The position numbers were made by a program, and so were the translations under genes. The notes beneath the pieces are model-generated. The model worked only from the letters and a program-made list of their open reading frames with translations, did not search any database and was not told the DNA's origin. From Labyrinthula sp. Ha (lineage: Eukaryota; Sar; Bigyra; Labyrinthulida; Labyrinthulaceae), in the NCBI GenBank assembly GCA_015227615.1, contig JAALGZ010000061.1:1-64000 (forward strand): a stretch of DNA of 64,000 bases, in the 5' to 3' direction. Within the stretch, counting starts at the first letter, position 1. Each line of letters begins with the position of its first letter. Below are positions 23,520-62,200 of the stretch, one piece after another.

Positions 23520-26500
23520 TCTTACAAAACTATTCTTTCTTAACTTAAGTTTCGCTGCCTGCACAAATATTTCATTTTGGTTCTTAGTAGATTTGCAAAT
23601 TTTTGACGTAGGGATAGTCTCTAAGGAACAAATGTCGGCGTAGTGTATGCAGATAAGCACAGACTATAGATCATTGCGGTGTTCCAAGAAAGGAGGCCGT
23701 TTTTTCGACTTTTATGTGTCACCTTTCTTCACTGCTCCATCATTTAACATTGTTTTCTTCCTGAAATTTTTCTGTCCACCATAGAGTACGGTCAAGGATT
23801 GAGATGTTCTTCAAATAATGTTGATTAATTCACTTTGATATAGAAAACATAGAGTGTTTCAAACTAGTTTTCTTTCTGAGATGACTAAATACTTTAGAAA
23901 AGAAGTGGAACTAGATTGTTAGCTCCATAATCTCATTTTTGTTGGACTTAGGGATCGGATTTGATATATTGATAGTTTATTAACAAATTTTCACCTATGT
24001 TTTTGCTTTTTTATTGATTCTAATAATACCTAAACCATTTTGATTCATTGGTGACAATCAATATATAACCAGAACCAATTAATACGAATGGAAATCCCAT
24101 GTATCTTATTGAGCAGCAAAAATAAGATAACTATCATATAAACATTGGTAAATTTTTTTAAGTCCTCTCCTTTAATACTATTTACATAGTCTACCATTAT
24201 GGTACAAAGAAACGTTTGCATAATTATTGTACTTTACAGGAATGTATTTTATATTTTTACCTTTGTTATAGACGCCAAAAGTTGCACATTAATTTTATTT
24301 CCTTTTAAAATAATAATTTGGAAGAAAAAAGAAGAACCTGTCTATGTATAACTGTAAGACGCCATACAAATAGTTAATAAAAAAATCTAGTCTTGTTTCT
24401 ACATGGTTCGTATCTTTCTTTTATATGTGCCTTTAAACTTGTAGTAGTGTGAGAAACTGCTAGCCAAAGATAAAGAATTGACTCTCTACCAAGATATTCT
24501 GAAGTTATTCTTACTCTAAGGTTATTTCTTGTACAATTTTTTTTTGAAGTTAAACGCGAACTCACCGTTATTTTGAAATAACGTGAAAGCACGCAGCTCT
24601 AGATCAGAACCTAACTTAGAGCTAAATATCTGTATTACATGAAGTTACGGTAGCATTGTTGTTATGGCTGAACTGCTGTGCGAAGACTTGGATTTAATCA
24701 ATTGCATATCCGTCAAAAAATGAAAGAATGGTTCAGGGAAGAAAGTTATTTAACAGTTGGGAGAACATTTGAAGATTTTATTGTGTGTACCGTTAGGATT
24801 TGGAAAAATGCTGTAGTAGCTAATGTAGCATTGAGGCTTAGGGAAACATTGGAATAGTAGCTCGCTATAAAGTACCGATAGGGATTTGAAGTATGACGAT
24901 ATTATACTTTTAGATTGAGCAGTTTGATTGGTAGATAGAATTTGTCATCACTATGCCGGATTAGGCCATAGTAAAGAATCCAATCAAATAAGAATTAAGA
25001 TTAATAACGAACTTGAAAAAAGACTAACCTTTCAAGGAAAACCACATGGCAGCCGATCGATACTAAGCGAAACAAACAGAATTGGTGCAGGTGAATACAC
25101 CCGATCTTGATAAAATATTGGGATATGTGAGAAAGCAAATAACTTCAAAGCTACATTACTCTCCCTGCTAGAAAACTGTCTGGTTACTGGACCAGTTATA
25201 TATTTCAAAGATCATACCAAGTAAGAAAAACATTCAATGAACTATCTAGAATCTTGTTAATGATCAAGAGAAAGACTAAACGTGTTAAACGGTACTTCTA
25301 TCTTTCTTTTCAAAAAGAAAACGCACTGCCCATTTTTGTTCGATAGAGATTAAATTTGTTCAGTATCATATCTCTGGAGTTAATTCTAGAAATGCTTGAC
25401 GTATGAGTGAATATGGGTTAACGAAAAGTACATAATACAGGTATGCATTTTATATACAAGGTTAATATTGAATATTATTAATTCATTGATAATTGGTCCA
25501 AGTTTATATTTATTTAAAACTTCAAGATCTGCAATTTTGTAAGTTATAACCACTTTTTCTGTCAAAAAGATATTAAATGATGAATGATGACCCACATATA
25601 TCATTTTTATTTTTCAGCCCCAGGTATAACCACACACTTCGCAGGACAATACATACCTTTAAAAGCAATTTATCATGTCGTTACCAGAGCAGCTATATAA
25701 CTCCATCTAAATAGGAAAAATTAGTTTGGATGTTTCCAAACTATAGAATATAAAGTCTGATAGAGATTCTTAGAAAGTTAGCTATCTAAAATTCGGCTAA
25801 GAAAATCAGCATAGCGAATTCTTATAAGTGTAGTTCTAACTAGCATACAACAACAAACCCGCTGTTCTGTTTAAGAGGCTAGCACTGTTAAAAAGAAAGA
25901 AAGAAAAGCTGAAGATTTAAGAACCAAAGGAGTTTCTTCTTTTTTTCTAAACTGGGCTCAGAGTCACTAAGTAACTAGAAGAAAAAAGTTGTAAAACTGC
26001 GCAATTATGAACATGGGACATATAAAAGATCTCCGCAAAAGAAATATAAAATGATACTTATCAGAATTAAGAGCTAATATGATGTTAATAATGAGGATAA
26101 TTTCTGGACCGAAATAAAAGTTATTGAATTGACTATAAAATGCTGGAAGCTGAGCTTCATCTTTATTTCATATGAATGGGTTTGCTAATTTACAGTTAGT
26201 TTTTTTTTAGAATTAAAAGTTATGTCTGAATTCTTAAGAGAAAAGCAAATAAAAATATCTTAAGAAACACCCTTGATTGTTCTTTTAAATTTCGGAAGCC
26301 AAATGAATGATTCTTCCTGTATTTACCAAGAACATATCTCATATACTTTTACTTAAGGGAGCTGTTTACTGGGGTGACGTGATATACCTCCAGAATATGG
26401 TATTAATCAGTTCGAAATATTTTCAAAGTGAAATTACAAGTATATATTTCAGGAGCAATTTTATGGCTACATTCAAGGATTTGTTGAGGTATTTGTCAAA

Positions 26501-41029: not shown

Positions 41030-42450
41030 CAAGCAATCCAGCAAAGCACGGTTGTACAACATCTGGAACAACGCGACAAGCCAGTGCCTCATTATGATGA
41101 ATTTCCAAACTCAACTTCAATCCTATCAATCCCTAACATAGCCTGGAATACAGAAAAGTGAACTTTCTTCCCACTAGCAGTGCTTAGAATCAAAGGAAAC
41201 ATCTCCCTCACATCCCACCACTTCGAAGAGGATAAGAGTTGGATTCTCTCTCCTATCATCGAACACCCCAACTGGCTTCAAATTCTGTGCACGCCGAGGG
41301 AAAGCACTAGGCAGCTGGAAAGAAAAGTCAAGACACAATAGTAGCAAGAGAAGTCTCTCCAATACCAGCATCTAACCTGGAACTGTGCTAACTAAACAAT
41401 GGTCGATCTTCTGAAACATAGATGAAACATCGAGAAAATGATAGCCTGAAAATAATCTGGATCGCAAAACCTTGGTCAGAACGTTTCAAACCCTGAACAA
41501 TAAGTCTCACTTGAATAAAAGTAAACCGCTTGAGCGCCAATAAGCGCAGTAGATATATCCCGTTGGGTTCAAATGGGCCTCGTGGAGCTTAGATGTAGAT
41601 AGAACTACGTTGAGAGAAAAAAATATAGCTGTAAATGTAAATCTTGGTGAGATAACACCGGAAAACATCTAATAAAACATAAATAAGCATCAGTATCTAT
41701 ATCATACTGCAATTGAACTGCGGAATCATCACAACTGGTATCTAATTGACATTTTCGGTTGTGATTGTTCTTTTCTTTCGATTCTTGATTTGGCTTTGGG
41801 AAATCAAACTCAAGATTCACGAAGAAACAAGATGTTATTTGAACCAGAGTGAACATGCCGAACAAAAACACCTACTGATGGAAGTAACGTAAATACAATA
41901 ACCGCTTCACTATAGAGAGAGTATGGGAAAGATCATAGGTTTGTGTAAGCTAGGTTCTCAGACTCAATGTGCACCTCCACGGAGCAGCCATTCAAAATCT
42001 AATCTAATAATCCTACAGATTTGTTTACAAAACCCGTCTCTCTTGTTATGTTTAGAAAAGCTATGAAAAAAATGTACAAGTTAGAAAACTTGGTTCAATG
42101 CGATGGGGAAGAGAAAGCCTACCATTTTTATTATTTCATAAATTTATATTTAAATATAAAATGATTAATACGTTTCGATACTTATTATATATTACAACTT
42201 GACTAGCTTAGGTGAATAGAGATATATAGAATTAAGAAAAAAAAGAATAAAGATCAGAAATTCCTTCTTGACAAGTTATGAATAAATTAAACCTCACCCC
42301 TAATCAGAAATTTGTTGTTATTGGGCCCCTAATAAGATGATAAGAATTGAAATACTATTGTTTAGAGACTTGTTAATATTAGTTTCATGTAAATCAAAAT
42401 GATATTTTCTTATTAACGTTAACATTCCAACAGTAACAATATATAATTAA
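41030..42450 (+). repeat. Composite retroelement repeat, copy 2 of 2,400-3,800
   Basis: This aligns with 2,430-3,800. Similarity is moderate at 41,040-41,870, very high at 41,878-42,080 (the CGCTTCACTATAGAGAGAG region is identical), and moderate to 42,450, where alignment breaks at element A. The Copia-like end (PTDLFTKPVSLVMF, about 42,012-42,060) is present here too. Alignment with copy 1 resumes at about 50,240, on the far side of element A. Confidence 0.85.
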
Positions 42451-42494
42451 ATTATTTCAGTGAGCTTCCGGACCAATGTTCCATTGCTGGATTT

Positions 42495-42632
42495 TGTGGC
42501 GTCCTCTTATTTGATTGAAATACCTTTCAATATACTTAACACAGACTAAATATCTATCGGTTTATTGATATAGAAATATACATACGTTTATGATTTAATA
42601 CACACATTAAAGAATCTATCATTATAATTAGA
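42495..42632 (+). repeat. Left LTR of element A
   Basis: About 138 bp, starting TGTGGC. It aligns with the right LTR at 50,110-50,230, including the shared TAGAAATATA block and the closing TATAATTA. The outer border is uncertain by up to about 40 bp, because 42,455-42,494 is also absent from the empty site. Confidence 0.65.
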
Positions 42633-42651
42633 GGAAGATATTATTCGAACG

Positions 42652-42897
42652 ATGTCGCTAGATAACAGGAAATTCATATGCAAATATAAATCCAAGCGCG
42701 CGGCCAAAACCCATCTCTCAAAAATAATCCAAATTCCAATGAAAAAAATAAATGTTCCTGGGGATCAAGCCAGGTCTATGGAAATAACTCAAGACGAAAG
42801 AAAGCAGTCACACAGGACTACGGGACCCACCAATGCACAGGGCTTGGTTAAAATGGCAGATCTGTATCAAATGTTAAGGAACCAAAGAAAGATATAA
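42652..42897 (+). mobile_element. Element A: gag-like basic ORF
   Basis: A stretch just inside the left LTR, rich in Lys, Arg and Gln (RKFICKYKSKRAAK). Its place and charge fit the start of gag; no zinc knuckle is visible. Fossil. Confidence 0.4.
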
Positions 42898-44235
42898 CAC
42901 GGCTTTAGCGATGAAAGGATGATATTTCAAATCTGAAGGTTTCTTAACCCGAGCTTATGAATGCTTTGGATAGCCAAAAAAAACAGAGTATCTACAGGAA
43001 AATTTTTATAAGAAGAAAAGAGAAAATTGAAAATAGAGAAGAGGTATTATTGACAGAAAAGTCGAATAGAGAAAAGAATGGCGATAGAATTTGAAATCAA
43101 GCAGATGCTTATGGAGATATGGAAAGTCCTAAAACTTTGAAGTATGTAAAGAATCCAGGTAATTATGAATATATATACAATCAAGGAGGACAATGGTTTA
43201 ATGAAAGACAAAAACGATAAAAAAAATTAACACGAGTTATAGCGCTTTGGATCCATGGTCAGAAAGGAGAAGAGCAGTTATATTGATAAGAAGACCAATA
43301 AAGGTGTTTAGAAATATGACTACAATTACCATGTTGTGACAGAGAGTAGGCCTAAAGGTGTGATTTTGATATAATTTAGACTCCTAACAAAGCTGAAAAA
43401 CTTACCAAAGAGGCGATTATAGACTTTTACATGACTTTGACCGTATTGGTATCAATGTCCCAAGCCTGAATATCCATGGCTTGCTGGTCAAAAGTGTGAC
43501 TTCGAATTTGCGTCACAGGGGATTGGATATACGTAATTCCTACAGAATCTACAGATATAAAAAACATTTAAAAGTTTAGTCATATAAATAGAACATGGTA
43601 TTTGGAAATTATAGCAGAAGAGTTATAATGATCTTCAAGGTATTTGACGAGAGAGAAGCAGATTTATTTGTTTTTCGATAACGTGTAGACAATCTTATGA
43701 TTCCTGAATAGAGGTAAGGATCAACATAGCAAAATATGAGTAAAAACTATGCTGAAGAATTTCCCTTTCATATTAAATGTTGAGTTTTACGAACTGTTAC
43801 TTGGAGTTAAACATCTTAATCTTTTCAGAATTACGTCGACATATATGAATAATAAAGGAGACATAAGAGTACATTCAAAAACTAGACAAGTTTCTGGGCA
43901 TAGAACTAATAACCCAAGTAAGCAAAAAAATATATAATGAAAAAAAATAGAAAAGATCGGTGCTTTAAGCCAGAATATAATTTTGATTCTGATGAATTTC
44001 TGCTCTAATGAATATTAAATTATATAGAGTATTGAGGATACTGGAGTACGAAGAGGGGTTTCCAGTACCCAGTTAATGAAAAGTTTACTATAAAAATAAG
44101 AGGAGCTCAGGTAAATAAAAAGTGAAGATCATTGGTGGAAAATTAATTCCTATCCTAAAAGTGATAACGGGAATATAAAAGTTTTCACAGAAGGTATTCA
44201 TTTTAACTTGGGCAAGCATAAGGTCTTTTGTATTG

Positions 44236-45765
44236 ATATTGCCGGTTGGTGCATCTAAATTATTGGGAAAGGCGTTGAACTGTTTTAATATCGGTATGGA
44301 CTGAATACAGTGAAAAGAACTTAGAAAAGGAACAATAAGAGGTTGGGAAAAAACCAAGCAAGATTCTGTATCCGTCACATCATGCTTCTCCTTGTGCCAA
44401 GATATATATTTCTCATTGAAGCACGGTCACATATACTCTTAAAGCACTAGTTCGAGTTTTTTTTGAGGACTTTACATTAAAATTATTCTAGAGAGGCTCT
44501 AAAAATGACGAAATTGTTTTAATTTGCTGTGCTCTTGATCTCTTAGTTTAGCCTATTCAAGAATATATTCCGTCTCCAACGCTAAAGTAAAAACATAATA
44601 TATACTGGTTTTCTTACATTATGATAACCGGTTCTTTGTTCTTGTATAGAAAAAGAAAATAACCGGGTTTAAGACGTCAAAAAGATACATGTGCACATTT
44701 CATTGATTTGTCATTATATAATTATGTATTCAAAGTTATGAATAAGATGATACCTGAACAAGTTTGTGATGTAAAAGGTGGCTTACAATCAGCATTTAGA
44801 TACAAGAAACCTTTAAGCTATAACTTGGTTGTAGAAATTGATCCGATACCTATCAAAGATGTTTCCGATGGGTATTTGAAAAAGTTATAGCATGACTTTT
44901 CGCATTCAGAAATCAAACCATTCATGGTGCAAGAGATGGTTAGTAATATTATAGAGGAGTTTATCAAAGTTGGATTAGGCGAGGGTGAACTTACATAAAA
45001 ACTGAGAAAGATATTCTAGTTTGAGTTATTGAAGAAAAATTGATGGAGAGTACCTTAAATTTATCTCAAATGGAAGTTTTTAAGAGAATTTTTAATGATG
45101 GACTAGGTTTATGGGGTGCCAAAGAGTTTAATGCAAAAATAAACAGTTCAATCCATGTGTACGTAAACATATCAAAAGATCATCTCATTCTGAGATGAAA
45201 CCGGTATCACGAAACAAAGGAAGAGGAAAAAATACTTGAGTTGAAATTTGAATCCCTGATCAAAAGGAGATGTGCTACTAGAGCCAAATTTAGAGATATC
45301 CCGTATTGGTGATGGGAATGAATATTAAGTTTCATGGAAGTTACCCCGAAATGTCGTTACAAGAACAGGAAGCTTGGAAATTAGAAAAAATATTTAATAT
45401 ATTGTGAATGGTCAGCAACTTAATAAGGTAAAACCACATTGCGATCAAATATTTGTTAAATTTATGGAACCTGTACCTAAAACTTCTTTATATCAAAATT
45501 TCATCTTTTTATACTACATTTGATGTTCTAAGCGGATTTGATTTCTTACCGAACAATCACAGATATAGGAATATTTTTACATTGGCAACACGCGATGGGG
45601 CATACACTATCCTAGGTACTCCAATGAGTTGGAAGAATCCATCTGCATTGTTCTTTGATAGTGTGGTAAATGAAATCATTGGCGGAGAGGAACACAAATA
45701 TTTTACTGCAAAGAATACGGAGCTGTTGCATGGCTCAATCACCTATTGGTCTACGCAACAATAAT
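44236..45765 (+). mobile_element. Element A: protease-like and reverse transcriptase regions
   Basis: ILPVGASKLLGKALNCFNIG near 44,240-44,300 resembles the C-terminal half of a retropepsin (consensus iLG.dfL). The reverse transcriptase is clear at 45,510-45,690: FDVLSGFDFLP matches FSKLDLxSGYxxIP, and TRDGAYTILGTPMSWKNPSA matches TxxGxYEFxxMPFGLxNAPA. Fossil, broken many times. Confidence 0.75.
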
Positions 45766-45989
45766 TTTTGATTTATCCAAAATTGTTGAAGATGTGTTTG
45801 AAAGAACCAACAACAAGAGGGTTTGTTTCAACTTAAGAAAATGAATTCTCGGCGCACAACACACTATATGGTACAGATGAGAAATAAAAGATGAGTTATA
45901 GAAGTTTTATTCAATTTTTTATACAATTTTACATATTCCTAATCTCTTTTATTATTTTGATGCAGCTCAGGTAATTTACCTGGCAAACT

Positions 45990-46620
45990 GGCTTTCACCG
46001 AACATTCCACAGCTGGCAGCAACAGAAAACTTTTTGTGGACTTAGCTAATCTTAAAGGTAAAAATTTTATTCATGCTCAACAAGAAAAGAAAGAAATTGT
46101 TTGGATAGATGAGCTAGATAACATTTGTTTTCGATTAAAAGAAGTTATTGTAGGGGTATCTAAAAGATTTTTTTTTGGAAACATACGATGACCATAAACC
46201 TATCTTATTATTCACTGATTCAAGCAGCTAAGTTTGGTTATTGACTATTTTTTAAAACAAAAAGGAGATGATCACCAATGACACGAGGGCATTAAAGTCT
46301 AAGCCGGTGATGTTGCTTTCAAGTTCTTGCTCTCTTTTTGAGCTAGAATTGTATATTGCCAAAATGTAATTATATCATATTGTCTACGCTTATGACCACA
46401 CAGGATTTCTTTTACGCATACACAGTGGTGGTATATCTGTTGGCACAGATCACCGTTAATTACTTTCAGTTATTAATACCAAGAAAAAAAATTTGTTCTG
46501 AAATTGGCTTTATCATTGGGCGATCCTTCTACAATTGGTAGGTATGACAATGCTCCACGTTAGTAGCAGGGACAACTTCGTTAGTGATTTGTTTTGAATA
46601 CGGGGAAAATGCCTTAATCT
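45990..46620 (+). mobile_element. Element A: RNase H region
   Basis: KLFVDLANLKG near 46,030 and VSSRDNFVSDLF near 46,560-46,595 match the first acidic strand region and the VxGxDNxVADxLSR end of Ty3-type RNase H. Fossil. Confidence 0.55.
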
Positions 46621-47143
46621 TGGGGGCTAAAAATTCACTGGCTTTAAACTTAAATAATACTGAGTCAGATGGTGAGTATTTTCAGGATACCCCCGATTTG
46701 TCGGAACCCTACTATTATTAGGGAAAGGTTTGACCATGTGAAAGAAACACCTGAATAAAGAGTGTCTGTCATTAGCAATGAAGATTAGATCTCCAATATA
46801 GAATAAGTGGCCAATTAAAACTGCATTTTTTACGAAGATTCAAAGTAAGATGAAGCAATTCAATGGCAATTCTTAAAAGCTCAAGCAAAAATGTACTATA
46901 ATCTCGTGAAAAATCGCCGAGGCAGATGGTTATGAGTTTAAAATTTTTTTAAGAGTATATCTCATATTTAGTGTTTTTTGTAATAGAAAAAGTGGAAAAA
47001 ATTTGAGTAAAAGGAAATCATGAACTCGCAAAGCTGCTTACCTATGAAATTTAGAGAAAAAAAGATGCAATATAATCGGAGGTTTCTTCTATTCTAGGGA
47101 AAAGTACTTAATACCTAATAATCTAGTTCTTAGGCATATTATA

Positions 47144-47560
47144 TTGAATCATGCTCAAAGTGTTCATCTCAGAAAAGAAGCAAAGAGGAAGTTTTTATCA
47201 GAAATATATTTTTGTAGAGTTTTCAAAAAAAATCTTAATAAGCTCCTAACAAAATTTAGAGGAAAATTCCTTCATTGCAACTTATCTCCGAGCCTAATCA
47301 CAAAACTTTCCAGTATTAAGAAATTGAACTAAATATCCATAGAAATTCTCATAGCTGACTATTTGTATATTAACTCTGTGGGATATATCTCAGTCTTCCC
47401 AGATTCAGCAAGTATAACCGTACAGATGATTTTCTTGAAAGTTAAAACAGCACCTACAATGGTTGTCGCGCTGTTATCTTGGAGAGCTAATGTCCGGCTC
47501 CTGCACTTGTTTCTCGATCTAAGACACAGAGGTTCACATTTTTCAAACGAATGAATGGCA
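47144..47560 (+). mobile_element. Element A: integrase region
   Basis: A His-containing zinc-binding-like segment (HAQSVHLRKEAKRKFLSEIY) is followed by a catalytic-core reading: ADYLYINSVGYISVFPDSAS, then LHLFLDLRHRGSHFSNE, which corresponds to the integrase P.xxxSDxGxxFxS motif. Fossil. Confidence 0.65.
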
Positions 47561-49269
47561 TAGTTTTTTAAGACAACGAGATTTTCTCAGAGTTTCTCGA
47601 TAATATACTTGCTTTGGATACATGGATCTTTTCAAACGATTAATTCAAGGATAATCGGTTCATTTGAAGCTTAGTCTCCTAGTTGGACTACAAGATACAA
47701 AACGGCTCAATTATTTACCAATGGTCACATATCTTGCTAATAATAAGCCTATGGAACGGAGATTAAACTCCACCCCAACAAACTATTTGTTTACTTCAAG
47801 ATGAGGGAGCCTTTATGTCTCAAAGACTCTAAGCATTTTGTCATCTATTTAAGTGCCAAAATATTTGTGTCAAATTGTGTGGAAGAGTTCTTGAAAGAAG
47901 TAGAAAAATTATCAGTTTATTTAGAAGAGTTACACTCAAAAATCTACATCATGGTGCTATTTAAGGAAAAACCAGAAAAAAAGATAAATGACATAAACCA
48001 CAACCTTATCATTTAGTCCAATATTGGAGATTATTTCTTTTTTAAGAAGAATAAAGCCACATCGCTCCGGAAAAGACGAGGTTAATCTGGTTGAATACAT
48101 ACCAAATTTTGGATATCATATTGAATTGCGTTTGTTCTGTAGAATTTTTAGCGGGAAAAAAGTATTACACTGAAACTGCTTATGGTAGTGTTTAGATAGA
48201 AAGCTATTGGGTAATAAGAAGTTGAAAGCGCTCTTTATGCACAATTTCCATTCTTTAGAAACCACGAAATTTATAAGCAATCGTTTTTCAGAGGGATTAA
48301 AACACAATACGAAATTCGTATCAAATGACTGGGATATGACGCTAACAAGAATACGTCGTAAAATTTTGAGATGATATACCAGGATTTGCCTATTCTTGTT
48401 AGCAGATGTGTAGAGCCGGAAGTAGCTGACATAGGTAAAAGATTACACTTGCTGGTTCTAGTAGAAAATATTGATGAAAAGAAATACGACACGAAGAAAA
48501 ATACAAGTAGAAATTTAAATCTAAATTGTATCCAACTTAGGTTCACTAAGCTAAAGCAAGTTGATAACTTTCCATAAAACAACATATTAGGTTGGTATCC
48601 TGAAGAGAAATTGGTGTTAGAGTCCTTGGTCTTGAAGTTTGAATCTTGATGCTACAGAGACTACTTGAAAACTAAGGCGTTGCCTTTCAAAAGCAAGCAA
48701 CAGATCTCTATACAGCTACAATACCTCCTAAATCTACAGGCTATTGAATTGTCCAATGGATTAAAGTTCAAAATAGGCCATGTAAGACAATTCTTATTTA
48801 GATATTCTAGGATCAAAGAATCCCAGTAGAATCTTCCTGGCTCTTTTAATACGATGTTGAAGAAGGAATATGTTTTACAACTTTTCATGCAGTAGATTAA
48901 ACAGTATGACGATGAACAGATCAAGATTCTATATTTCGACCCTTAGATGACTTGAAACAGTTAAACTTGTTAATCTCAGAAGCACTTGAACAGGAAGCAA
49001 AGCAGTTTGTAGCGAAGAATAATATTCATTCGGTACAAGAGCTGAAAGATTCAATGAACCTTTTTACGAAGGGTGTCACAGATATGATATAGAAGGATGA
49101 ATTGTTGTTACACAACGTACATCGCCCTTTATATTTAAATGATGAGATTCGGAATATTTTGAGTTAGTTTTGCACGATCATAACGCTACGCTTCGAAGAG
49201 GACATTTCTTTAGACCACACAGAATATTCACAAATTCGTTTCCAATATTAGGGAAATAGTCTACTAATT

Positions 49270-50015
49270 TTGTTACTTGCCGATCAAGTTCAACTTACTT
49301 ACATGGAAGTCGAAGCGCAAAGAAAAATGATGTTGAAATATTCAGGAGGCAATAAATTTATTATTGAAAGAAGTGTGACTACAGTTTACTTTGAACCGCC
49401 ATGCAAGATGATTTATATTTGTGACATGCTTAACCTCGAATTTTATAAACCAAGAGTGTAGAATAGTATATTTCAAGTGACCTCTATGGATTCTCCTTGA
49501 GCTGTTGGAAGTAAAAACCCCAATTGTGGCGTCTTTCTCAAATATCCAACTTTTTCGTTTGTTGACTTTAGCAAGCTTAAACTACAACTATATAACAACC
49601 CTTTTGGTTCCCATTTACATGTCTGGGTTACTATTTACAGTTATAATTGTGTTTTGAAGTGAATGTTCCAGGAGACGTTTTATCTTATCGATTATCTTTT
49701 CTGGGTTAAATACACTAGACATGGTGAACTGTCCAAGAGCCTTGGACATTTCTTGGAACATTCGTAAGAAACTTGTTTAGTCCTTGAAAGAATAATTTCT
49801 CCTAAATTTGCTTACGGTGATACTTTTAATGAAGTCGATCGGAACAGATTTATTTAAATACTTAGAAATTATGCTACTCCTTCTTCAACTAAGTCAGAAG
49901 CTTTTTATTACGCTTTAGATGCCCTATGTCCTTTCGTTAAAGAGATTGATTTATTTTCAAGAAGGAATAACATTCGATTTAATTTTGTTTCTATTAAGAT
50001 GGATATGTAATCGGA
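49270..50015 (+). mobile_element. Element A: MT-A70 (METTL3/METTL14-like) methyltransferase region
   Basis: MT-A70 enzymes move a methyl group from S-adenosylmethionine to N6 of adenine. Family blocks appear in the expected order and spacing on the + strand: PPCKMIYICDMLNLEF (PxWIxCDxRxLDF), a DPPW-type motif near 49,490, LKYPTFSFVDFSKLKL (YPTLSxxEIxxLPI), HVWVT (LWVT), LIDYLFWVKYTRHG with LGHFLEHS (WVKxxxxG...GHxLxHSxE), ETCLV, and ALCPFVKEIDLFSRRNNIR (LxPxxxKIELFxRxxNxR). It ends 95 bp before the right LTR. So it lies inside the element, 3' of integrase, and is not host sequence. It is a fossil with several breaks. Confidence 0.85.
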
Positions 50016-50109
50016 AACGAATTTACCATACCTGTCTCCGAACCGCAGAGACCTTTCCTAAAAAGAGATGTGTGTTTACACCAGGAACAGGATTCTAATT
50101 TCTGAATAT

Positions 50110-50230
50110 TGTGGGGGATTCTATTATTTTGTTGCAATACTTTGTAATATAGTTAAAATAGGCTATATATCTATTGGTCTATTTATATAGAAATATATTT
50201 ATATTAAAGAAGTTATTATTTATAATTACA
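50110..50230 (+). repeat. Right LTR of element A
   Basis: About 121 bp, TGTGGG...TTACA, with the TG...CA ends usual for LTRs. It matches 42,495-42,632. ROCO-unit sequence resumes within about 10-15 bp of its end. Confidence 0.7.
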
Positions 50231-50239
50231 GAAATCCAC

Positions 50240-52822
50240 TTCATTAAGATATTTGGATTTTTTAAATGATTACTTTTATACAAAAAATATTTTGGGCAAT
50301 TAATTTATGTCCTAAAATAACAAAAACTAACAAATAAAAAAATGATGAAACCAATTAAACAAAAATATGAACAAAAATGGAGTAAAACATACTTTGAAAT
50401 TCAAGGGTATCTAAATTAACTAAATTATTCAAAGGGAAAAGCATGATGAATACCCGAACAAGTTCAAAAGAGAGATAGAAGAGTTTGTAAAAGGGTTCCA
50501 ACCAGATAAAGAAGTGCCTATTATAGAGTATTCTATTTTCTTTTATCTTTATGTTAGGTTTGATCATTTTCCCTTTGATGCTGTTAAATCTATATTTGTA
50601 AGATTTATTCCTTGTTTTCCAGCTGTGAAAGAACTCAAGTATTTTATTTTGTTTTCTTGACTTTAGTTTTTTGAGTTGCACATTCAGTGATGACAACTTT
50701 AAGAACTTTAAACAAATCAAAATCTTGAAACTGAATATGTTGAAGTATGTATTTTTTTATATGTTTAGTTTAGGTTTAAGTATTGTAATATTCCTGAAGT
50801 GAGTTCTTTTTACAGTTATTTGAAATCAATCAATATAAAAGATATACAGTAAAAATATTTTATATTATTATTTAGATTATATAAAAACAATTTTAAACAT
50901 AGAGTATTTCTTATTAAAATATTGAGTTTTTAGTATTTATGAAGATTTTCAAAATAAAGTTATTGTTTCAGCTATTAAAAACTACTTGAAAACTAATAAA
51001 ACAATAAAGAGTTTGCAATATGGTCATTTTACAAGGTTCGAAGAGGTTTCAGAAGAAGACATTATTGAATTACAAGAAATAGTTGATCCACATCCCTGCA
51101 TTCTTGGCCTTCAAGTTGATAAGATTTTTATTGAACCTAAAGGAAAGAGTAAAATGTTAAAAGAACTTGTTCATTCTGCTTTGCAAAGTCAATATGAAAA
51201 GGGAAGTTCGTTAAGAGAAGTTCCAGTTATTCTTATGGGCATTTCATTTAGTTTTGTTTTATTTTTAGGTGATGGAAGAACTGGAAAAACTTCTTTATTA
51301 AGAAACTTATCTGGAAAAAGTTTTCAAAAATAAACACAATCTACTTTAGTTTTCGAAGATTATCAAATATTTCAAGTTAACGACTATGCAAGTAAGTTTA
51401 AACCAACTACAAAATATGATCTTACTGTTCAAAGAGTTAGAAATATGATAACTTCTTACTATGAAGTGGAAGATGAGGTTCAAAAAAAGTCAAGATATAA
51501 CTTAGATTTTGAAGACGAGTTGATTACAAGAACTATTAGAGAGAAAAGCTTTGTTGAACAATATACAGCAAATATGTCTTCAAATTTCAGAACTCAATAT
51601 ACTTTTTTACGTGTTTATGATTTTGGTGGACAAGAAGTTTTTCTTCAGTTCATCATATTTTTATGAATAAAAAAGCTATGTATTTAGTGGTTTTCAATAC
51701 GACAAAGTTAAAAGAAAAAGATTTATCTAGATTAAAATTTTGGTGTGAAAGCATTTTAAGAAATACTCCAAAAGCACCTGTTATGTTTATTGGAACTTTC
51801 TTAAGTACCTTTATGAAGAAAAATAAGACACTTGAGAATATAAATAACACAATTAAATCCTTTTTGTATAAGCTTTCTGGGAAGTTAACTATTGTTGAAG
51901 ATAAAGAAACCATTTTCTTTCCTGTTGACAACGCTATAGATTATGATAACAGTCTTGTGAATGACGTAAAAAAGAGGTTAATCAGGAGATATGCCTCATC
52001 AGATCGAAGTATATTGATCAAATCTGTTTATGTATTATTTTTGGATAATTGTCGAGAAGAATCAAGTTATATGACAGTTGAAAAGTTTAAACTAAAAGCT
52101 AAAAAATCTAATTTTTCTGAAGAAGAAATGGAAGAAATATTAGAAATATTTTCTAAAGAAGGAATTATTTCTTATTTCAAAGATATAAATTTATCTGAAA
52201 GTGATAATTATATATTTTTTGCAACTTCTTTTTTAGCTCAAGCTTTGGGAAGTTTTATTCGTGATGAAAGTTTTCATCAACTTACTTTTAGAACAAATAA
52301 AAAGTGTTTTCAAATTATAGAAAATATATTGATACTGGAATAATAAGAAAAGATTTATTTGAAGTGTTATTACAACAATATACAAAAAAACAAAGAGAAT
52401 ATGTTTTAAACTTAGCTTTATATAATTTAGTTTTATTTGCACATCCAAGAGAACAAAATGCTTTTATTGTTCCAGAATTACTTCCTGAAAGTATAGATAA
52501 AAAGTTGAAAGAATTGAAAGGAAGCAAGAGAGTGATAACATTTGCTTCTCCAATCACCGTTGCTACATTTGTTAAAATTATCTCTTTGTTTCTTGAAGAT
52601 AATAAGATAGTTGACTCACATATATTTAAATATTTTGCTAGGTTTATTTTTGATGCAAAGAGTATTTTAGATATTTTATTTGTAGAAGAAAATAAAATAG
52701 TATTGAACTATATTGGATATGAGATAAAGAGTTTATTATGGACTAAAATTCAAAATATTGTTGAAGAAGAAAATACTTTTGAACAAGAAAATAGAGAAAT
52801 ATTCCCTCTAGGGTTTTTATGA
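50240..52822 (+). pseudogene. ROCO-family (LRR-Roc-COR) pseudogene, copy 2
   Basis: This parallels 3,830-6,458 with high similarity. LRR-like segments: 50,460-50,800 and 50,950-51,030 (AIKNYLKTNKTIKSLQYG). The Roc P-loop GDGRTGKTSL is at 51,269-51,298, DFGGQE at about 51,619-51,636, and the strand ending MFIGTF at about 51,780. COR spans about 52,010-52,470 (KEGIISYFKD, FLAQALGSFI, GIIRKDLFEVLLQ), with a C-terminal tail to 52,822 and no kinase. Short candidate introns: 50,528-50,557 (30), 50,639-50,666 (28), 50,745-50,768 (24), 50,785-50,815 (31) and 51,239-51,268 (30, GC-AG). Defects: a stop at 51,331-51,333, the frameshift after DFGGQE shared with copy 1, and a one-base loss near 52,304. 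Roc GTPase-COR modules normally act as dimerising switches in signalling. This copy is probably not functional. Confidence 0.85.
51239..51268 (+). other. Candidate 30-nt GC-AG intron at the Roc P-loop, copy 2
   Basis: GCATTTC...TTTTTAG. Equivalent to 4,873-4,902 in copy 1, where the 5' site is GT. GC-AG is a known minor splice form, or the change may simply be decay of the pseudogene. Confidence 0.6.
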
Positions 52823-53767
52823 GAATGCAAATATGAATTGATATTAAATACTAAGAACTAAGCTATTTTGGGGAATTGCCATGAATATTTTTCTTTGAAC
52901 TCCTTTTTCATTTCTGTTTCCAAATATTTGTTTACTTCGAACATTCCTAAACTTAAAGACAAGCTATTCTATCTAGGGTTTTCCACTTTCATTTGAAGTA
53001 ATCCAAAAACTTTTTAGGTTTTTCCCTTTTTTTTCTAGATCTTACTTATAAATAGGAGTTCTATAACAGCATTTAATCCAATATGCTAGGTTATCAATGT
53101 ATTTTCAAGAGAAAAAGACATTCTAGTTTCGAAATAGATTCTCTTTAAGTATTTTATTCTTATATTCATTTTTATTAAGAATAAAATGGTGCTGACATTA
53201 GTTTACAGAAAAGTTTATCAAGAATATGATTCCTTAATACAACACAAGTATTCTCTAATGAATACATTTTTTCCTTAAACTTAGTTTCTGAAATATTGAA
53301 TATTATATTCATGGGTATGTTTTTCATTTGGATAATATATAGAAATGTTTTGGGGGATATTTATGAGATGCCAATTTTAAACTTTTCTAATGAAATATTA
53401 AGTTTACAAAAAAAATAATTATCTTTGTATGAATATTTCTTTTTATGTTTTTAACTCAATTCATTAAACGACAAAAATCTCTTTTTTTTGTTTCTACTGT
53501 TTAAGATATTTGAATTATTATTTGGAGAATACTTTTCTCTGTATATACATTTTTTTAGTCAAATTTGTTAATCATTTTCTTTAATGCTATTATCTTGAGT
53601 TATTTGGAAGTATAGACTCTTCTCTATGAAGAAAATGATAATATATTCTCTTCCTTAAGAATATGAGTTAATTTTAAATACCTATGACTACTTGAATACC
53701 TTTTCAGTTTTAAATTTGTATTATTAAAACTCTTTGATATTGATTTATCAATACTGATAAACTATTA
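52823..53767. other. AT-rich stretch without a gene
   Basis: Downstream flank of ROCO copy 2. No similarity to the flank of copy 1 could be seen by eye, so the duplicated unit seems to end close to the COR tail. Confidence 0.5.
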
Positions 53768-54179
53768 TTGAGGCAAGATTGTTTATTTTGTAGCAGATTT
53801 TCTGAGCCTTGGTACCTGAAAATTAAAAAAGTAAATAGTTTACGTAGGCGAGAAATAATCAATCCTCTATTGGAGCCAAGCGGAACTCTTTTTCATAACT
53901 TATGTTTTTTAAAATTTAGTTTTTGTTCAAGAAGAATTGGTTCAACAATTTATTTATAAAGGATATTTAAAAACATGATATATGAAAATGGATAAATTAC
54001 TTCAGGGAATTGAAAACTAATGATATATTTCTTAGATTTTCTTAAAGTAGGCAGAGTTAATATCATCAAATTTTATGAGGAAGAGGCATATTTAAGCTCA
54101 GCCATGATCGATTACTTGATGGATTTCCTGGTTCCAAATAAGAATTTTTCTGGATAAAAAAAACAAAATTTACTTCAAT

Positions 54180-54900
54180 CATTTAGCTCCTATTGGTATC
54201 AAATTAAAGAAAGAAATGTCTGGGTACCGTAGTAAGCTATATCTGGTGAATAAAAAGCACTTGGGGGTAACGAGTAGTACGATACGAGAGTTGGAGGAGA
54301 CTGGAGATATACTTCGAAATCCAAATCCATATTTCTTGTCACCAATCATAATGATACCTAAACTCAAAAAAAACGAATATCGGATGGTGGTCAATTTCAG
54401 GCGGTGTAACTATAGTGTGAAGTGCAGTAGAAATGGGCTGTCTGATATTGAGGCCAGGCTATCGTGGCTTCAAGGAAACGGGAGATACTTCAAATCAGTT
54501 GATGGGATCTCTATAATTAGTTACTCGAGAGTTAAGTCAGGGCCAAAGAAGTTCTTGGGAATGATAAGGTAGTGGGTAGCTACAATGTGAAGATGTTTTC
54601 ACAGGGTTCATCAAAATATCAGATGTTAACCAGGAACGTGTAGTCTCGGAAGTGTTAGGGGGAGTTTGTTTGTTTCGGGGTACCTTCAGCAGATCAACAA
54701 TACACTACTATTTCCATCTATTAGGCCAGAGTATTTGGAAATATTGAGGAGTTTGTTGCAGGGTATTAAGGAAACAAATTTTTGATTGGACATCTATTAG
54801 TATCACTTGGTGTACAAGAAGGTGTAGTAATGTGGACGAATATAGGAGAATGGTGACTGGTGATAAAATCCTGAGTACTTCATAGAGTTTTCTAAAATAA
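54180..54900 (+). mobile_element. Element B: reverse transcriptase region
   Basis: Reverse transcriptase fingers blocks are plain in 54,216-54,572: TIRELEETGDILRN, FLSPIIMIPKLKKNEYRMVV (SPIxxVxKKDGxxRxVVDxR) and DIEARLSWLQGNGRYFKSVD (DIexxLxxLxGxxxFSxLD). Downstream blocks are too decayed to place. Fossil. Confidence 0.75.
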
Positions 54901-55989
54901 AAAAAAACAAACAAAAGTGTCAATTGGAGAATATTATTTGTCTTTAAACTTGATTGAATAGCTCCATTCCAGTGTTGACGGAAATAAAAAAAAGCTTTCA
55001 ATATTTGAATATGGGATTTTCAAGGGGGAATTAGTGCAAAATATCGAAAGAATGTTGATAAAGTCAAATGAAAGGCAGATTCGCTAAAAACTTTGTGGAG
55101 AAGCAAGTATAAACAAGAGCTTGAGAAGTTTTTCATCAATATTGACCAAAGTAAACATCAAATTCTAATACTATGCAAAAAAAGGAAAGATGATTCCCTT
55201 GTTTTCTGATACTAGTTTCCGGTTTTGACCCTCCTTAATAACCTGTTGAGGCAGGGATGGCTAGAGGCCGGTACATTTTCTAAGTGACGAGTTTATCAAC
55301 TCGTCTCTGCACTGGAGCATGATAGATAAGGAAATATTTCCTTTGATAAAAGTCTTTTGAAGTTTTTTTTCATACTCATAGTGTATGGATTCCGAGTTTA
55401 GATACCCATGAACCACCCAAACTTAGTTTATGTTATTAAAAATCCAGTGGAAGTAAAGAATTTTGTATTAGGAAGGATACAATGATGGATTCTCACCAGT
55501 CAAGAATATCAATTGCTATTTAGGCATATACTCGGTAGGGACCACGCACTAAAGAAAATTCTGACTATATAGTGATGTGCATCCAGGGAGAAAACTCAGA
55601 TTTAAATGAGGGAAAGTGCCGTTGATATATCAGTAGATGAGCTGGAGCTCAGTTTGATGGGTATGAAGTTTTTTTTTGCCAAGAAGGATTTGGACGAGGT
55701 GAAACGGAAAGTTAATGGGATGGTACGGAGTGATTCGGCTTCTATATGGCAGGAGGTGGAAGTGTTGGTGGTTGCTGAAGAATGGTGGAGAGGTGATTAG
55801 AAGATGGTGGGTTTTTAGAAGGTAGATTAGAGGTGTCATTTCCAAAGAGAAGAATACATTGGAAGATGTAACCTAAGAGGGCGGTGATGTTGATATCGCA
55901 GGATAGTGCGTTAGAGAAGAAGGGGGAGGGAAATGATAGGATATCTAGGACGGAGGATGGCAGGGTAGCTATAGCCAAAATATCTCTTG

Positions 55990-56650
55990 AGAAGTTAGTA
56001 ATCTGCATCAACAACTGCGACGGTCATTGTAGCTCTGAAGAAGTTTATAAAATCTTTGAGGACATCTTTTTTTTAAACATAAGCAAAACTCAAATAAAAA
56101 CTCACCAGGTTGAAGCATCTTTCCCTTCGCTATGATAAGTATGTGGAGTTGATAAGGAGGACTCTGGGGGAGGGGGACTTGATGTTACAAAGAAATCTCT
56201 TGAAGGTCTACAAAGGGTACGTATTTGTGATGGTGGAGGATGCTAGTAGAAAGTTATTATCGGTGCATTATGAAAGTCCTAGTTCGGAGGTGCTAGAGAG
56301 AGAGTTAAATCTATGGAGAGTTCATGATTGATATCTTTCGGAAGCGGTGATAGTTACAGATCAAGAGCCGCAAATTTGTAATAGGATCTGTGAGAGGTTC
56401 AAAGAACTATACCTATTAGAACACTAGTTTTCCGTAGTGTACTCATCTTGGAGCAATAGGGCTACAGAATCGACGAATTGATATATTCCGCGAGTTCTAA
56501 GACAACTGTGTAGTTTGTTCATGTTGAAAAATGTGGATTGGGATATTCTCCTATTACAAGTCATGAGTGCCGTGAAAAACATTGGGAATCAATTTGAATA
56601 CTCACCTAATGAACTTATAACAGTATTTACATGAAATAACGGTCCCAGAG
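55990..56650 (+). mobile_element. Element B: integrase region
   Basis: A His/Cys segment (CDGHCSSEEVYKIFEDIFFL) fits the integrase zinc-binding domain. GYVFVMVEDASRKL fits the first catalytic strand (xIxVxVDxFSRx), TDQEPQICNRICERFKEL the SDxGxxF block, and YSSWSNRATESTN the HPxxNGxxERxN block carrying the catalytic Glu. Fossil. Confidence 0.7.
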
Positions 56651-58559
56651 CAATATTGAGGAATAAGAACGAGAAAGAAGCGTTTCCTATCGCAGTAGGA
56701 GGAAAATAAAAAGATCATATTGATTTGGAGGGCTTTCTTAAGCTATTGAGAGGATATGATGGATAAGTTGGAAGCTAGAAGGAATGAAATGCTACCGCTG
56801 ATTATGCAAAGACAGGGAAAAGTCGTAAATATGTGGATGTGTTGTCTCGGTTAGAAAATATTGACTTTGATCATGGGGTACTGCGTCCTGGTATCAAGAG
56901 TTTCAACCCCTAAATTGACCAAAAACTTTTCTTGCGTTTGACAGAACCCTATCTGGTTGATAAGGTACTCTAACCCCACACCTACACATTTGAATTTCTA
57001 ATTGGAAAGAAATAAAAGATTCTTTCGCATAGGTTGATGTTGTACGAGGGAAAGGACCAAGACATTAAATGAACCAGTGAAGCTACAAAGATATTCTATT
57101 ATATTCTAGGGGTCTACCGGGTACACAATCTTCTGAATGTTTGCAGAGCCCATGAGGGGTGAGAGGTTCTTACCTGGTGGAAAGAACTTGCTGGGTATGA
57201 GAAAAAACTGGAAGATTTGCCGGAGGAAATTCGAGAATTCTCCCTTATGGTACAAACTTTTTTGTTAAAATAAAGGGGATTCTGATGAGCTGGTGCTTGA
57301 GATGAAATGATCAGGGAGAGAAAGTTGACCAGGTTGAAAGATAATAGAAATGATATGATATTGATGGTAAAGTGGGATAATAACAACAGAGACAGATGAA
57401 ATAAAGATATATGCAGAAAGTTCCACTATCCTAAGGAGATCCAGAGCATGTGTGAGGGGTGATGACAGGATTCATTTGTTAAAAAGGTTAGATAGAGATG
57501 GAGGATATAGTTTTCGAGACAGTCTGCAGAATATTATGAATTAGAAACTGGTAGGAGTTGATAAAAAGAAGATATTTTCGGGGAAGAATGAGTACCAGGC
57601 AATGAGTAGGTTGCATTCAAAAAATAGGATCCAAAAATTTTTGAATTTTCTGGATTAAAAGGTGGAGATCATTTATATAGGGAGCGTGATGATGGAAGTA
57701 AGGGTGTTGTTTCGTAGCAAAGGCATGATAATAAATTAAGGACCTAGGGTGCCAATTGGAGAGTTTAGGGAAACAAGGAGGAAAATTAGGGATAAATTAG
57801 GGAGACATGGATTTGGACAAGGTTTGATAAGGATTCTTTTGTTGAGTTTGGGTTATATCTCCAATCCAAGATTAAATTTCGGCATATTCGGAGGTATATT
57901 AAATTTGTGTAGGAGTGGAGTTTAGTTAGTGAAGTGTCAATGGTTAGTAATGAAATGGTTATGCAAAAAGTGGCCAAAGATGAGGCAAACTTGGAGTTTA
58001 GGGAAAAGGCGACCCCGGTCTTATTGGATTCAGCATTTTTTTTTGTGAATTGTATTAATTTGAAGCAGATAGAGAATTTTGGGCTATGTTTGGAGGAAGG
58101 GTATTGTCTGTTTTGTAAAGTTACGGATGGGATAGGGGGCTATTGTTGGAAAGGTTAACTGCAAGGTAATGGTGCAATTAGGGAGACAGGCAGATCTACT
58201 TAGGTGATCAGGTGTTTTATCTGTTGAAAATGGATTTGAGTAGAAGCATTTTGGGCATGCCTGTATTTGCAAGATTTGGATGGATTCTATTTAACTTGAT
58301 TCAAATGAAATCGGAGCAGCCGGAAATGTATACAGTGGAGTTGAGTGAGTCTGCTGTATTGAATCAATGAGGAAGTTATTGGAGGAGGAGTTCCATAAGC
58401 AGTTTCAGCACAGGAAATTAGCTCAGGTCTTCGGGAATTGGTATCAACAATTCAAAGGTGATGTTCCAAGGAATATGGCGAGAGTTCCTGTAGATTATAT
58501 TTATCGTATTTCTGGTTTCCCAGGATATAAAAATCAGCAGTTTTGTAGCTGGATTCAAC

Positions 58560-59130
58560 CACAGGATGTATAGAGTGGAAGATGTTCCCAGTCTGAAATT
58601 TGGTAAAATAAGAAGGTATGATGCGGTTTTACTTGATCCACCATGGAGCGATGGAGTCTTTTTTATTGCCTTCTAGATATTTTTCGATTGGTTATGGTGT
58701 TTTTTTGTCAGATAAGGAAATATTAGAATAGAAAGTAGGAGAATTGGTGGATGATGCGTTTGTTGCTCTTTGGGTCACTTACTCAAAAGTTGAATTGGGT
58801 TTGCAATATATAATAGAATGGGGATTTCAGTTGGTGGGATTGGTGGTTTGAGAAAAGAAGATGTGATACAGAAAATTTTGGAGTTCTCAGGGGAACTTCG
58901 TGAGGCATCATAAGTGGATAATACTGTTTGAAGTTAAAGTGAAGCCCAGATTTTGTAAACAGCATTCAGCTGATGTGATTCAATCTATAGTTCTTGAAAA
59001 AAATAGGAAGCCTGACAAAATGTATGAGTTCCTTGAATGGTTGATGCCTACTGGAAATTGGTTGGATATATTTGGAGGGAAAACAAACTACAGATGTGTA
59101 TGGTATATGGTTGGAAAAAATACTCTTTAA
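58560..59130 (+). mobile_element. Element B: MT-A70 (METTL3/METTL14-like) methyltransferase region
   Basis: DPPW is at 58,635-58,646 within YDAVLLDPPW, the MT-A70 catalytic motif. Then come GELVDDAFVALWVTYSK (LPI...xLWVTN), YIIEWGFQLVGLVV (WGFxxVxxIxW), RHHKWIILFEVKVKP (xHHxExCLxGxKG), EKNRKPDKMYEFLEWLMP (RxxSxKPDEMYxxIExLxP) and NWLDIFGGKTNYR (KLELFGRxxNxRxGW). Upstream, 58,367-58,573 (LAQVFGNWYQQF) may be its N-terminal part. It lies 3' of integrase on the same strand, as in element A. Fossil with several breaks. Because no LTR was found here, a retroelement next to a decayed host MT-A70 gene is the alternative; element A makes that less likely. Confidence 0.8.
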
Positions 59131-59192
59131 AAGATTCAGAAGGAGGAAAGATAGTACTTTGAATGTGCAAATTGCTTTGGTCAAGCCTTAAT

Positions 59193-59235
<43 letters not shown>
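59193..59235. repeat. (TA)n(GA)n compound microsatellite
   Basis: About nine TA units followed directly by about twelve GA units, 60-70 bp after the MT-A70 reading of element B ends. It may mark the element's 3' region. Confidence 0.9.
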
Positions 59236-59239
59236 GTTA

Positions 59240-62200
59240 TCTAGTGTTGAGGTCGAGTAAAGTGGATAATGACGTGAATTGGTGAAACGCGTTTGATGTG
59301 TCACTTAAGGATACGGATAGTCGTTGGGCTTTGAAGGATATTATTTATGAGGTAGAAAAGAAATGCTTAGAGCCTTGCGTTTTAATTTTAAAGTATAGTT
59401 TACATGGAAAAACTTTTTTACAAAATATATCAACCTTTCAGAGGTTCCTAATAGTGAAAAACAGCGTAGAATTTAAATAAAGAATAAATCAACTACTTCA
59501 AAATTGCGGAACCACAAAGAAGCTCTTTACAAACTTAATACTCAACTTTCTCATCGAACAATTTGTCACTTCAAAACAGTTTTTGTCCCATTAAAAATAT
59601 CTGATTATATGTTATGGAGCCAGTGTAATTGTAAGTACTATGAATGAGTTCGTGTATTGAATAAAAAAGTAAAAATGTATTGCTCGTTTATTGAGTTTTT
59701 ATAAATAGGAAACTGTAATATTGGTTTTCGAGTGATGAAGTAAAAGCCAGAAAATAAACAAAATCATGGCTTCTCAAAGACAAGATCAATATTTACCGAA
59801 CAAGATTATCTCCAATTTCATAATAATATAATATTCTGTCTAAACTTACGGTTTTACCTTGAATAAACAGCGGAATATTTTTTGCTTAGAAATTGTACAT
59901 GTTCACAGGGCACATGGCTTCCCAACCTAAAAAGAAACAAAGAGAAATTATCGGAAAACCTATATTGGAGTACGATATCTCAATAACAAAGCTTCTTGTC
60001 TAATATAACAAGATAAAGAACAAGTGGGAATATACAGTGTTGCAATATATGAAAATAAATGCTCTCAAATTTCTTCACTTAGGCATTCATAAAACAATTT
60101 ATATTTTAATCTACTTCTCAGTACTTGTACATACCTCACTTGAATAAGAAAAATTTCCATCTACAAAGCTTAAAACCAAATTTAATCCTCACACAAGATG
60201 ATGCGCAATACAAACTATTTCATATATTGTAATCAAAATATAGAAGTAAGAATATATTCATTTGATGTTACTTGTTTCTAGTGGCGCCTATATTTTTAAG
60301 AGTAAAAATTGGAAATAATTATTGGTGAAGTATGGATATTTTAATACTGAGAATTTGGAGCCATTAATGTGTAGAAGATATGTCAGTAATCAAGGCTTAG
60401 CTGGTTTCATACTCTTATAACTAATAAGTCTTAATATCTATAGTAAGTGCAAAATATACATTTATTGTAACTATACATTTGTGGGGAAGCTGTAACAAGT
60501 ATTCTATTAGATGTAATACATTCTCAAAAAACTACCATAAAACCTCAGAAAAATTAAGGTAATTTAGAAAATAAAATTCAAAAACTTCTTTCAGATTTCA
60601 GGTTTATTCAGAAGGCTATTGTTCATACTCATAAGCTTGTATATTTTAAGAGCTGTACTTCTGTAAAGCTTAGTTTATAGCTATAAGAGATTTTCACGGA
60701 AAGCTGTTACAATTAGAGTAAAAACCTGAAATCTTAGTCTTGATACATCAAACATGTGAAATTTGTTGAAAAAGAAAGTTGTGAGTATTCATATGATTAT
60801 AATGGTGTTAAATTAATGTTTTCACATCAAGGATTAAAATATCTTAACATTGTTGGTTAACTACAGCAGAAAATCCTCCATCTATGTGCAAAAAAATGCC
60901 TGTTGAAACCTCGTATCATTTCATAGGTAAAATCTTAACGGTATATTATGGCATTCAGTGCATCATTGGTCATGTATGTTTTCATAAGTGCATGTATTAG
61001 AAACCTTTCAGCTATTTGCAAATATAAGCTTAGTTCTAAGTGACACAAAACCCATACACCATTTTTGATTCAGAAAATAAGTTATCTGAAGAATTAAAAA
61101 ATTATGCTATCCCTCTCATCACATTGAGATAACAATAATTGTTTTCATATGGATAGAGTAAGTTTTTACCAAATTATCTTTCCTAACCTGTATATTCTTT
61201 GTTTAAATTTGTTTGTTCTTGTGGTTTACACTTTTCTCTCACTTAGTGCTCTATTAATTGCTTATCTCATATTGTATGATTTGTACCAGCAGGTAAATTC
61301 AAAGTTTATAGTATATATGACGTTTCTTTATACATTTGTTGATTTCTCAATCTTCATTAGGAATTTATGTTTGCAGCACTATCTTAGAAGATGAATATTT
61401 TTGTTTTGCATTCAAGAAACCCCTTATTTTGGACTTAAGATAGATATCCAAACGGCAATATACAGATGTAATGCGAATATGGACCTTGAGTTTGGAAACT
61501 ATGGCTAGATGTTAATTGTAGCTATATGCTGTTGTAGTGATGGAAGCACTTTAGCATATGATTGCAACTTGGTAACTTATTAACCACGCAAAGATTATAT
61601 CCAATTCCAACCGAGTTTTTTCCAATACATAGCCTAGAGAGAGTACGTAATGATTCAGTTATTATCGTAATAAAGACTATATAAAAAATTTTAACCTAAC
61701 AATCAATAGCGTAGTGCTGATGGTAACTTAATGAATAGTTTTTTTTTATAAGAATTATCGTACTTTTCTGAAAAATCAAATTTTATGTTTTTCGAGTTTG
61801 AAGAAAAGATATCTTTATCAGTGAGGCATTCTATCAGCTATCTTGCAGAGAAATGTATAATGTTACTATAATATGCAATTATTGTCCAATATTCCGTTTA
61901 AGAACATTTATAATGTATATATATATATGTACCTTTCCAGGTGAAAGTAGACAAGTGTTTATTATTATCCAGCTCGTATTTGGGATTATTTTTGGCGGAA
62001 ACAATTCACGATTATGTAAATGCCTATTATAATAGAAAATCTGCTCCAGTAACATGAATGGTTTATGTGGTTTTCACTAAGAAATTATGATTTTATTCAA
62101 AAAAATAAGTCATATTCCCCTAACTGAGCATAAACACATTAGATGATAGTTTAAGCTCAATATTCAGTAAATAGAGAAATACAATAGTCATTCAGTTAGA

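Follow-up and report, generated by a model that had tools for sequence, protein, structure and literature searches.

Retrotransposons carrying captured DNA methyltransferases are known. KnitGypsy-Dnmt3 from Klebsormidium is described as a gypsy-type retroelement with a captured methyltransferase under purifying selection (PMC5890265), and certain DIRS elements are described as encoding an adenine methyltransferase, a bacterial Dam-like N6A enzyme, together with a tyrosine recombinase (PMC5890265, PMC6338049). The elements reported here share the gypsy-type backbone, the captured putative DNA methyltransferase and the purifying selection of the first, and the retrotransposon-encoded adenine methyltransferase of the second. 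They differ from both in the parts used. KnitGypsy-Dnmt3 encodes a C5-cytosine Dnmt3 and has repeats described as DIRS-type (PMC5890265), whereas our elements have ordinary LTRs, an MT-A70 domain of the N6-adenine class and a p1-like subunit. In place of the tyrosine recombinase and Dam-like enzyme of the DIRS elements (PMC5890265, PMC6338049) they carry an rve integrase and a eukaryotic MT-A70, and a profile search of this genome with the Dam methylase family PF05869 gave no match. The earlier note on this locus knew of no retroelement lineage with an m6A/6mA-type enzyme. That was too broad in view of the Dam-like N6A enzymes reported for DIRS elements (PMC5890265), but for MT-A70 it agrees with the literature searched, a body from which preprints and subscription papers were largely absent: in the titles and abstract openings listed from it we found no report of MT-A70 in an LTR/Ty3 element, nor of p1-AMT1 capture by any element.

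Two further systems supply the comparison for the halves of the polyprotein. Chromoviruses, Ty3/gypsy elements with an integrase chromodomain, share the RT-RNase H-INT order, the post-integrase chromodomain and the LTRs; the present elements add a C-terminal p1-AMT1 part, a WxDD reverse transcriptase motif and, in one of two clades (clade II), a protease motif between p1 and AMT1. The ciliate MTA1c/AMT1 complex of MTA1, MTA9, p1 and p2 (PMC9852454; PDB 7f4l, 7yi8, 8xyl) has the same AMT1-type catalytic and p1-type Myb/homeobox-like domains, which here are joined to a retroviral pol within a single polyprotein. MTA1c is described as methylating ApT in DNA (PMC9174199); p1 and p2 are reported to be needed for its activity, with lysines of p1, MTA9 and MTA1 forming a DNA-binding surface (PMC9852454). 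In several eukaryotes 6mA of the AMT1 pathway is described as associated with H3K4me3 and with genes that are transcribed, an association in which causality is not settled (PMC12695648).

The window analyzed here is a 64,000-nucleotide stretch of one contig in a 50.8 Mb, 153-contig assembly of Labyrinthula sp. Ha, and it contains two elements, both dead, that belong to a large superfamily of Ty3/gypsy-type LTR elements with a chromodomain and with recent activity (Table 1). The first, element A, had been read in the earlier note as an LTR retroelement bearing an MT-A70 adenine methyltransferase and lying within a repeat-ROCO unit that also exists in the window without the insertion. Self-comparison confirms the empty copy: window 2,795-3,820 pairs with 41,434-42,459, and 3,830-6,149 pairs, in two pieces, with 50,259-52,493, at 82-86% identity over the two flanks. 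Because the flanks match the empty copy on both sides, the sequence between them is an insertion in the ROCO-repeat unit. In a domain scan of the empty-site unit, Roc scored above its cut-off and COR-A below.

Element A retains recognizable parts of a retroelement in a decayed state. PF05063 matched in one plus-strand frame at 27.7 bits (E 3e-6, cut-off 23.9) in a profile scan of two of the three plus-strand frames, each taken separately with stops read as X; the match falls inside 49,270-50,015, the interval proposed earlier for the methyltransferase, which also includes a segment preceding the MT-A70 domain. The 1,914-aa ORF of an intact relative, L049, covers window 45,025-50,031 colinearly, in pieces, by tblastn. 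Names for the RT/RNase H and integrase regions of element A are taken from the domains of intact relatives and not from a scan of L049, and the p1-like Myb site was placed from L049 residues 1337-1544, which align to 48,311-48,937, together with the Myb at L049 residue 1428. Where L049 has DPPW, the equivalent catalytic motif in element A is broken. The terminal repeats span 103 nt at 75% identity, and repeats this short (~100 bp) and this diverged indicate that element A is old. Element A itself is dead, and the claim of a methyltransferase-bearing element depends on its intact relatives.

Table 1 Features of the decayed elements and of the empty insertion site in the window.
Feature	Position	Strand	Basis
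Empty-site homologue, ROCO-repeat unit without element	2,795-6,149	+	Window self-alignment
Element A, decayed Ty3-type LTR element inside ROCO-repeat unit	42,460-50,258	+	Self-alignment gap versus empty copy
Element A, left terminal repeat remnant	42,483-42,580	+	~75% identity to right remnant; ends approximate
Element A, RT / RNase H region, split over frames	45,025-46,612	+	tblastn, L049 residues 241-774
Element A, integrase region	47,072-48,034	+	tblastn, L049 residues 922-1243
Element A, p1-like Myb domain, expected site, decayed	48,584-48,830	+	Inferred from L049 alignment
Element A, MT-A70 domain, stops inside, catalytic motif broken	49,540-49,995	+	PF05063; L049 alignment
Element A, right terminal repeat remnant	50,098-50,197	+	~75% identity to left remnant
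Element B, second decayed MT-A70 element, L040/L031-type subfamily	~54,135-59,118	+	tblastn with L040/L031
Element B, MT-A70 domain, interrupted by stops	58,699-59,118	+	PF05063 47.5 bits, E 2.6e-12

For element B, which the earlier note had overlooked, all three plus-strand frames were scanned with PF05063, and a DPPW motif is still legible in one frame. A search of window 53,000-61,500 found no direct repeats at least 50 nt long. GC skew is ~+0.3 over window 54,001-60,000, which spans element B; skew is also strong at 22,001-24,000, where an isocitrate dehydrogenase-like ORF is located that has an EF-hand at its C terminus (21,915-23,516, plus strand).

Intact relatives of these two elements are numerous in the assembly. 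At least 150 PF05063 matches were found, and all 150 that were scored, from 354 candidates, lie above the cut-off. Open frames around the 150 listed matches reach at least 1,000 aa in 53 cases, at least 1,500 aa in 36 and at least 2,000 aa in 19. Twenty regions were taken for inspection, all selected for long open frames and so not a random sample; 19 contain an ORF 1,600 aa or more in length, the exception (L045) having been taken on the wrong side. In 11 of the 20, with LTR identities of 94.1-99.7%, an LTR pair surrounds a Ty3/gypsy-type ORF that ends in MT-A70, while the other nine were cut at an edge, taken on the wrong side (L045) or had no LTR pair. The near-identity of the LTRs of intact copies points to recent insertion. 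The long ORF starts well within the LTR pair in L040, L036 and L046, in L040 after a separate 465-aa frame, so some copies are not one uninterrupted ORF. Other copies thus do not consistently lack MT-A70 between their LTRs, and the arrangement recurs across the genome, which supports the earlier view that an LTR retroelement has captured an MT-A70 methyltransferase.

Element sequence lies upstream of MT-A70 in 29 of the 30 best MT-A70 loci; six of the 30 were also inspected as full regions, which leaves 23 of 24 as independent cases. Starting from the integrase, 36 of the 150 listed rve matches have MT-A70 downstream at 1,968-2,178 or 2,439-2,493 bases (controls 0, 0 and 1), and 114 have no listed MT-A70 1-4 kb downstream, the matches listed being the best 150 of 549 for rve and the best 150 of 354 for MT-A70. 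For RVT_1, 150 of 660 candidates were scored, many of them in frames of ~1,180 aa that resemble other retroelements.

The domain order of the intact polyproteins is RT, RNase H, integrase, chromodomain, Myb and MT-A70. RVT_1, RT_RNaseH, rve and then a terminal MT-A70 (71-127 bits) were found by Pfam in all eight intact ORFs scanned, with rve above its cut-off in two of them. Chromo, C-terminal to the integrase, was above its cut-off in five and below in three, and a Myb domain was found below cut-off in three of the eight. Among solved structures, the pol part matches Ty3 Gag-Pol (7q5b) best (111 bits, residues 654-1559 of the EukProt protein P0003). The place of the aspartyl protease motif divides the elements into two clades, one with the motif before RT (clade I) and one with it between the p1-like domain and MT-A70 (clade II); the latter, an unusual pol order, was seen in L031, L033-L035, L038-L040, L043 and L050. 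Matches of 4 bp that may be target-site duplications flank plausible LTR ends in L040 (ACTT) and L043 (ACAC); in the other eight of ten elements such matches were shifted, ambiguous or absent. The primer-site region after the 5' LTR has no TGG start in ten elements. A perfect palindrome of 12-18 bp occupies the LTR/primer-site junction in ten of ten elements (L034, L036, L040-L044, L046, L048 and L050) and may act as an unusual signal for priming or dimerisation. The reverse transcriptase active site reads WxDD in all 13 sequences compared, 12 element ORFs and P0002, a protein from another assembly; the usual form of this site is Y/FxDD.

A profile built from 14 element methyltransferase domains and searched against the PDB matched MTA1/AMT1 at 237 bits, METTL3 at 152, METTL14 at 92 and METTL4 at 70. 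Taken singly, each of 19 domains gives a better score with AMT1 than with METTL3 or the bacterial proteins used, though L034 and L050 do so by small margins. By sequence, then, the element methyltransferase is nearest AMT1/MTA1, the DNA-6mA enzyme, and not METTL3. In trees that contained no AMT2/5, AMT6/7, METTL14 or METTL4 sequences, P0002 is the only element protein to group with AMT1 (85/92), and the inner branching does not separate single from repeated capture. A bacterial origin of the domain is disfavored because the bacterial rows form a clade of their own (98/96 and 99/96), with L043 weakly beside it. An AlphaFold model of P0005 (304 aa), a protein that lacks the p1-like part, is good over the methyltransferase and poor over the ~90 N-terminal residues; that of P0001 (990 aa) had a mean pLDDT of 46 and was set aside.

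The Myb domain between chromodomain and MT-A70 has its best affinity with a subunit of the same complex. A profile of ten Myb-region sequences matched p1 of the MTA1 complex at 78.7 bits (E 2e-21), SNAPC4 at 61 and c-Myb at 42; the p1 match extends beyond the Myb fold proper, and p2 was reached weakly at 24 bits. With a longer clade I profile of seven sequences, in which the part beyond Myb is weakly aligned, p1 scored 60 bits and SNAPC4 29. A Tetrahymena p1 segment gave at least 150 matches in the genome (150 scored of 317 candidates), and 101 of the 150 listed MT-A70 matches are preceded, at 729-1,248 bases and on the same strand, by a p1-like match (controls 1, 0 and 0). Spacing is bimodal, at 729-900 and 1,122-1,248 bases, which fits two clades that differ in the place of the protease motif. 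This p1-like domain at fixed spacing before MT-A70 indicates that the elements carry a fused p1-AMT1 module, and from their place in one ORF we infer that the two domains act together.

Probable host counterparts were also detected. The two best p1-like matches (74-75 bits, the third scoring 55), at C1:1284461-1284688 and C100:136093-136314, have no listed MT-A70 nearby and are likely host p1 genes. Of the 30 best MT-A70 loci, the one without element sequence upstream is L008, a standalone ORF of 319 aa (L008:1051-2010, plus strand). Its closest solved structure is MTA1 (250 bits, versus 127 for METTL3), and it very likely represents the AMT1 of the host itself. The C5-cytosine methyltransferase family PF00145 gave only two host matches, at C77:362853-363845 and C121:1129060-1130208.

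The methyltransferase domain of recent copies is under purifying selection. Among recent copies at distinct places its pN/pS was 0.18 (37 DPAW pairs) and 0.14 (14 DPPW pairs), values drawn from non-independent pairs, and two DPPW/DPPG pairs gave 0.65. In 11 of 12 ORF pairs that share 45% identity or more, the methyltransferase part has a lower dN than the rest of the ORF, the difference being small in L037/L041 and L042/L044, and the reverse holds for L033/L034; dS is saturated in most of the 12.

Related proteins occur outside this assembly. P0002 (3,045 aa) follows the clade I order: it has a CCHC motif, a protease motif, RT, RNase H, a chromodomain, a p1-like Myb and an MT-A70 domain that reads DPPW. 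The integrase of P0002 is seen by motif only, with no rve listed by Pfam, and its methyltransferase region is 41% identical to that of L040. The EukProt protein P0001 is 96% identical to L040 over the same region and P0003 resembles L042 by eye, so that both probably derive from the species of the window; P0004, with a name in the style of P0001 and P0003, has only 47% identity to L044. A 188-aa MT-A70 piece on a 933-base contig of another assembly, P0008, groups with the L046 subfamily (94/88) and may represent a further source of MT-A70 elements. One scan of viral contigs found no relative of the p1-MT region.

The earlier note spoke of an m6A/6mA-type enzyme. The adenine class stands; as to its indecision between RNA and DNA, DNA is the likelier substrate, because AMT1/MTA1 are nearest by sequence and a p1-like DNA-binding domain adjoins. 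With p1 and AMT1 on one chain, the element could mark DNA of its own. We hypothesize that the aspartyl protease would cut the polyprotein, and that the p1-AMT1 part would travel with the reverse transcriptase and integrase and methylate adenine, probably at ApT, in element cDNA or in a freshly integrated copy. The role of MTA9 and p2 might be filled by the host's partners or by a homodimer. AMT1-type 6mA is a mark of transcriptionally permissive chromatin, so the methylated new copy would be presented as an active gene and would stay transcribed. We consider it slightly more likely than not that the fused module is a 6mA writer acting on element DNA in this way, so that new copies resemble active genes.

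The same anatomy, with an integrase nearby, would also suit a protective use of 6mA, in which the cDNA is shielded from a 6mA-sensitive host nuclease or tagged for strand or integration control. Methylation and protection of cDNA have been proposed for DIRS-DNMT elements (PMC5890265), and for the present elements we regard such a function as unlikely, though worth keeping in mind.

A module without catalysis is about equally improbable. The p1-AMT1 part might instead dock on chromatin or on the AMT complex and steer integration to active, 6mA-rich chromatin; MTA9 and METTL14 likewise do not catalyse, the chromodomain and p1-like domain stand in tandem, and the catalytic motif is altered in some subfamilies. 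Yet D209 and K280 are each kept in 14 of 14 aligned element domains (D182 in 9 of 14), and of the distinct element places where the motif can be read, 33 in all, DPPW stands at 17 and DPAW at 11, with DPPY at three and DAPW and DPPG at one each. L048, with DLPF, is outside the search pattern of that count.

Slightly less likely again is an RNA m6A writer that would methylate element RNA and thereby raise its stability, translation, packaging or immune evasion. All 19 domains lie closer to AMT1 (L034 and L050 narrowly), the element domains share with AMT1 a PTRG-like insert behind the catalytic motif that METTL3 lacks, and the p1-like DNA-binding domain adjoins MT-A70. A METTL3 origin is disfavored by sequence scores, not by fold: the 50 matches listed in a fold comparison are METTL3 and MTA1 entries in which the two classes are not separated. 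Finally, although the host has an AMT1-like gene of its own, a chance insertion beside such a gene is rejected because fixed order and spacing recur at many loci, and this or an assembly chimera is extremely improbable given the spacing in 101 of 150 listed cases, the single ORFs, the 29 of 30 top loci and P0002 from another assembly.

Returning to the self-methylation reading, its full form, in which an element lineage captured p1 and AMT1 behind a chromodomain integrase and writes the adenine mark of an active gene on its own new copies, is a tentative proposal, to which we give a little less than even weight. The AMT1/6mA pathway is described as slow-evolving and aimed at endogenous genes, and MT-A70 families as 'relatively static' in comparison with DNMTs (PMC12695648). 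In contrast, the pathway here appears to have been captured by a retrotransposon, with many subfamilies and under selection. The fused protein is a candidate for a natural single-chain 6mA writer, and young copies with and without the module could show whether 6mA brings about active chromatin or only accompanies it. If the proposal is true, these elements would mirror host silencing in reverse and would constitute a source of 6mA independent of the host AMT1.
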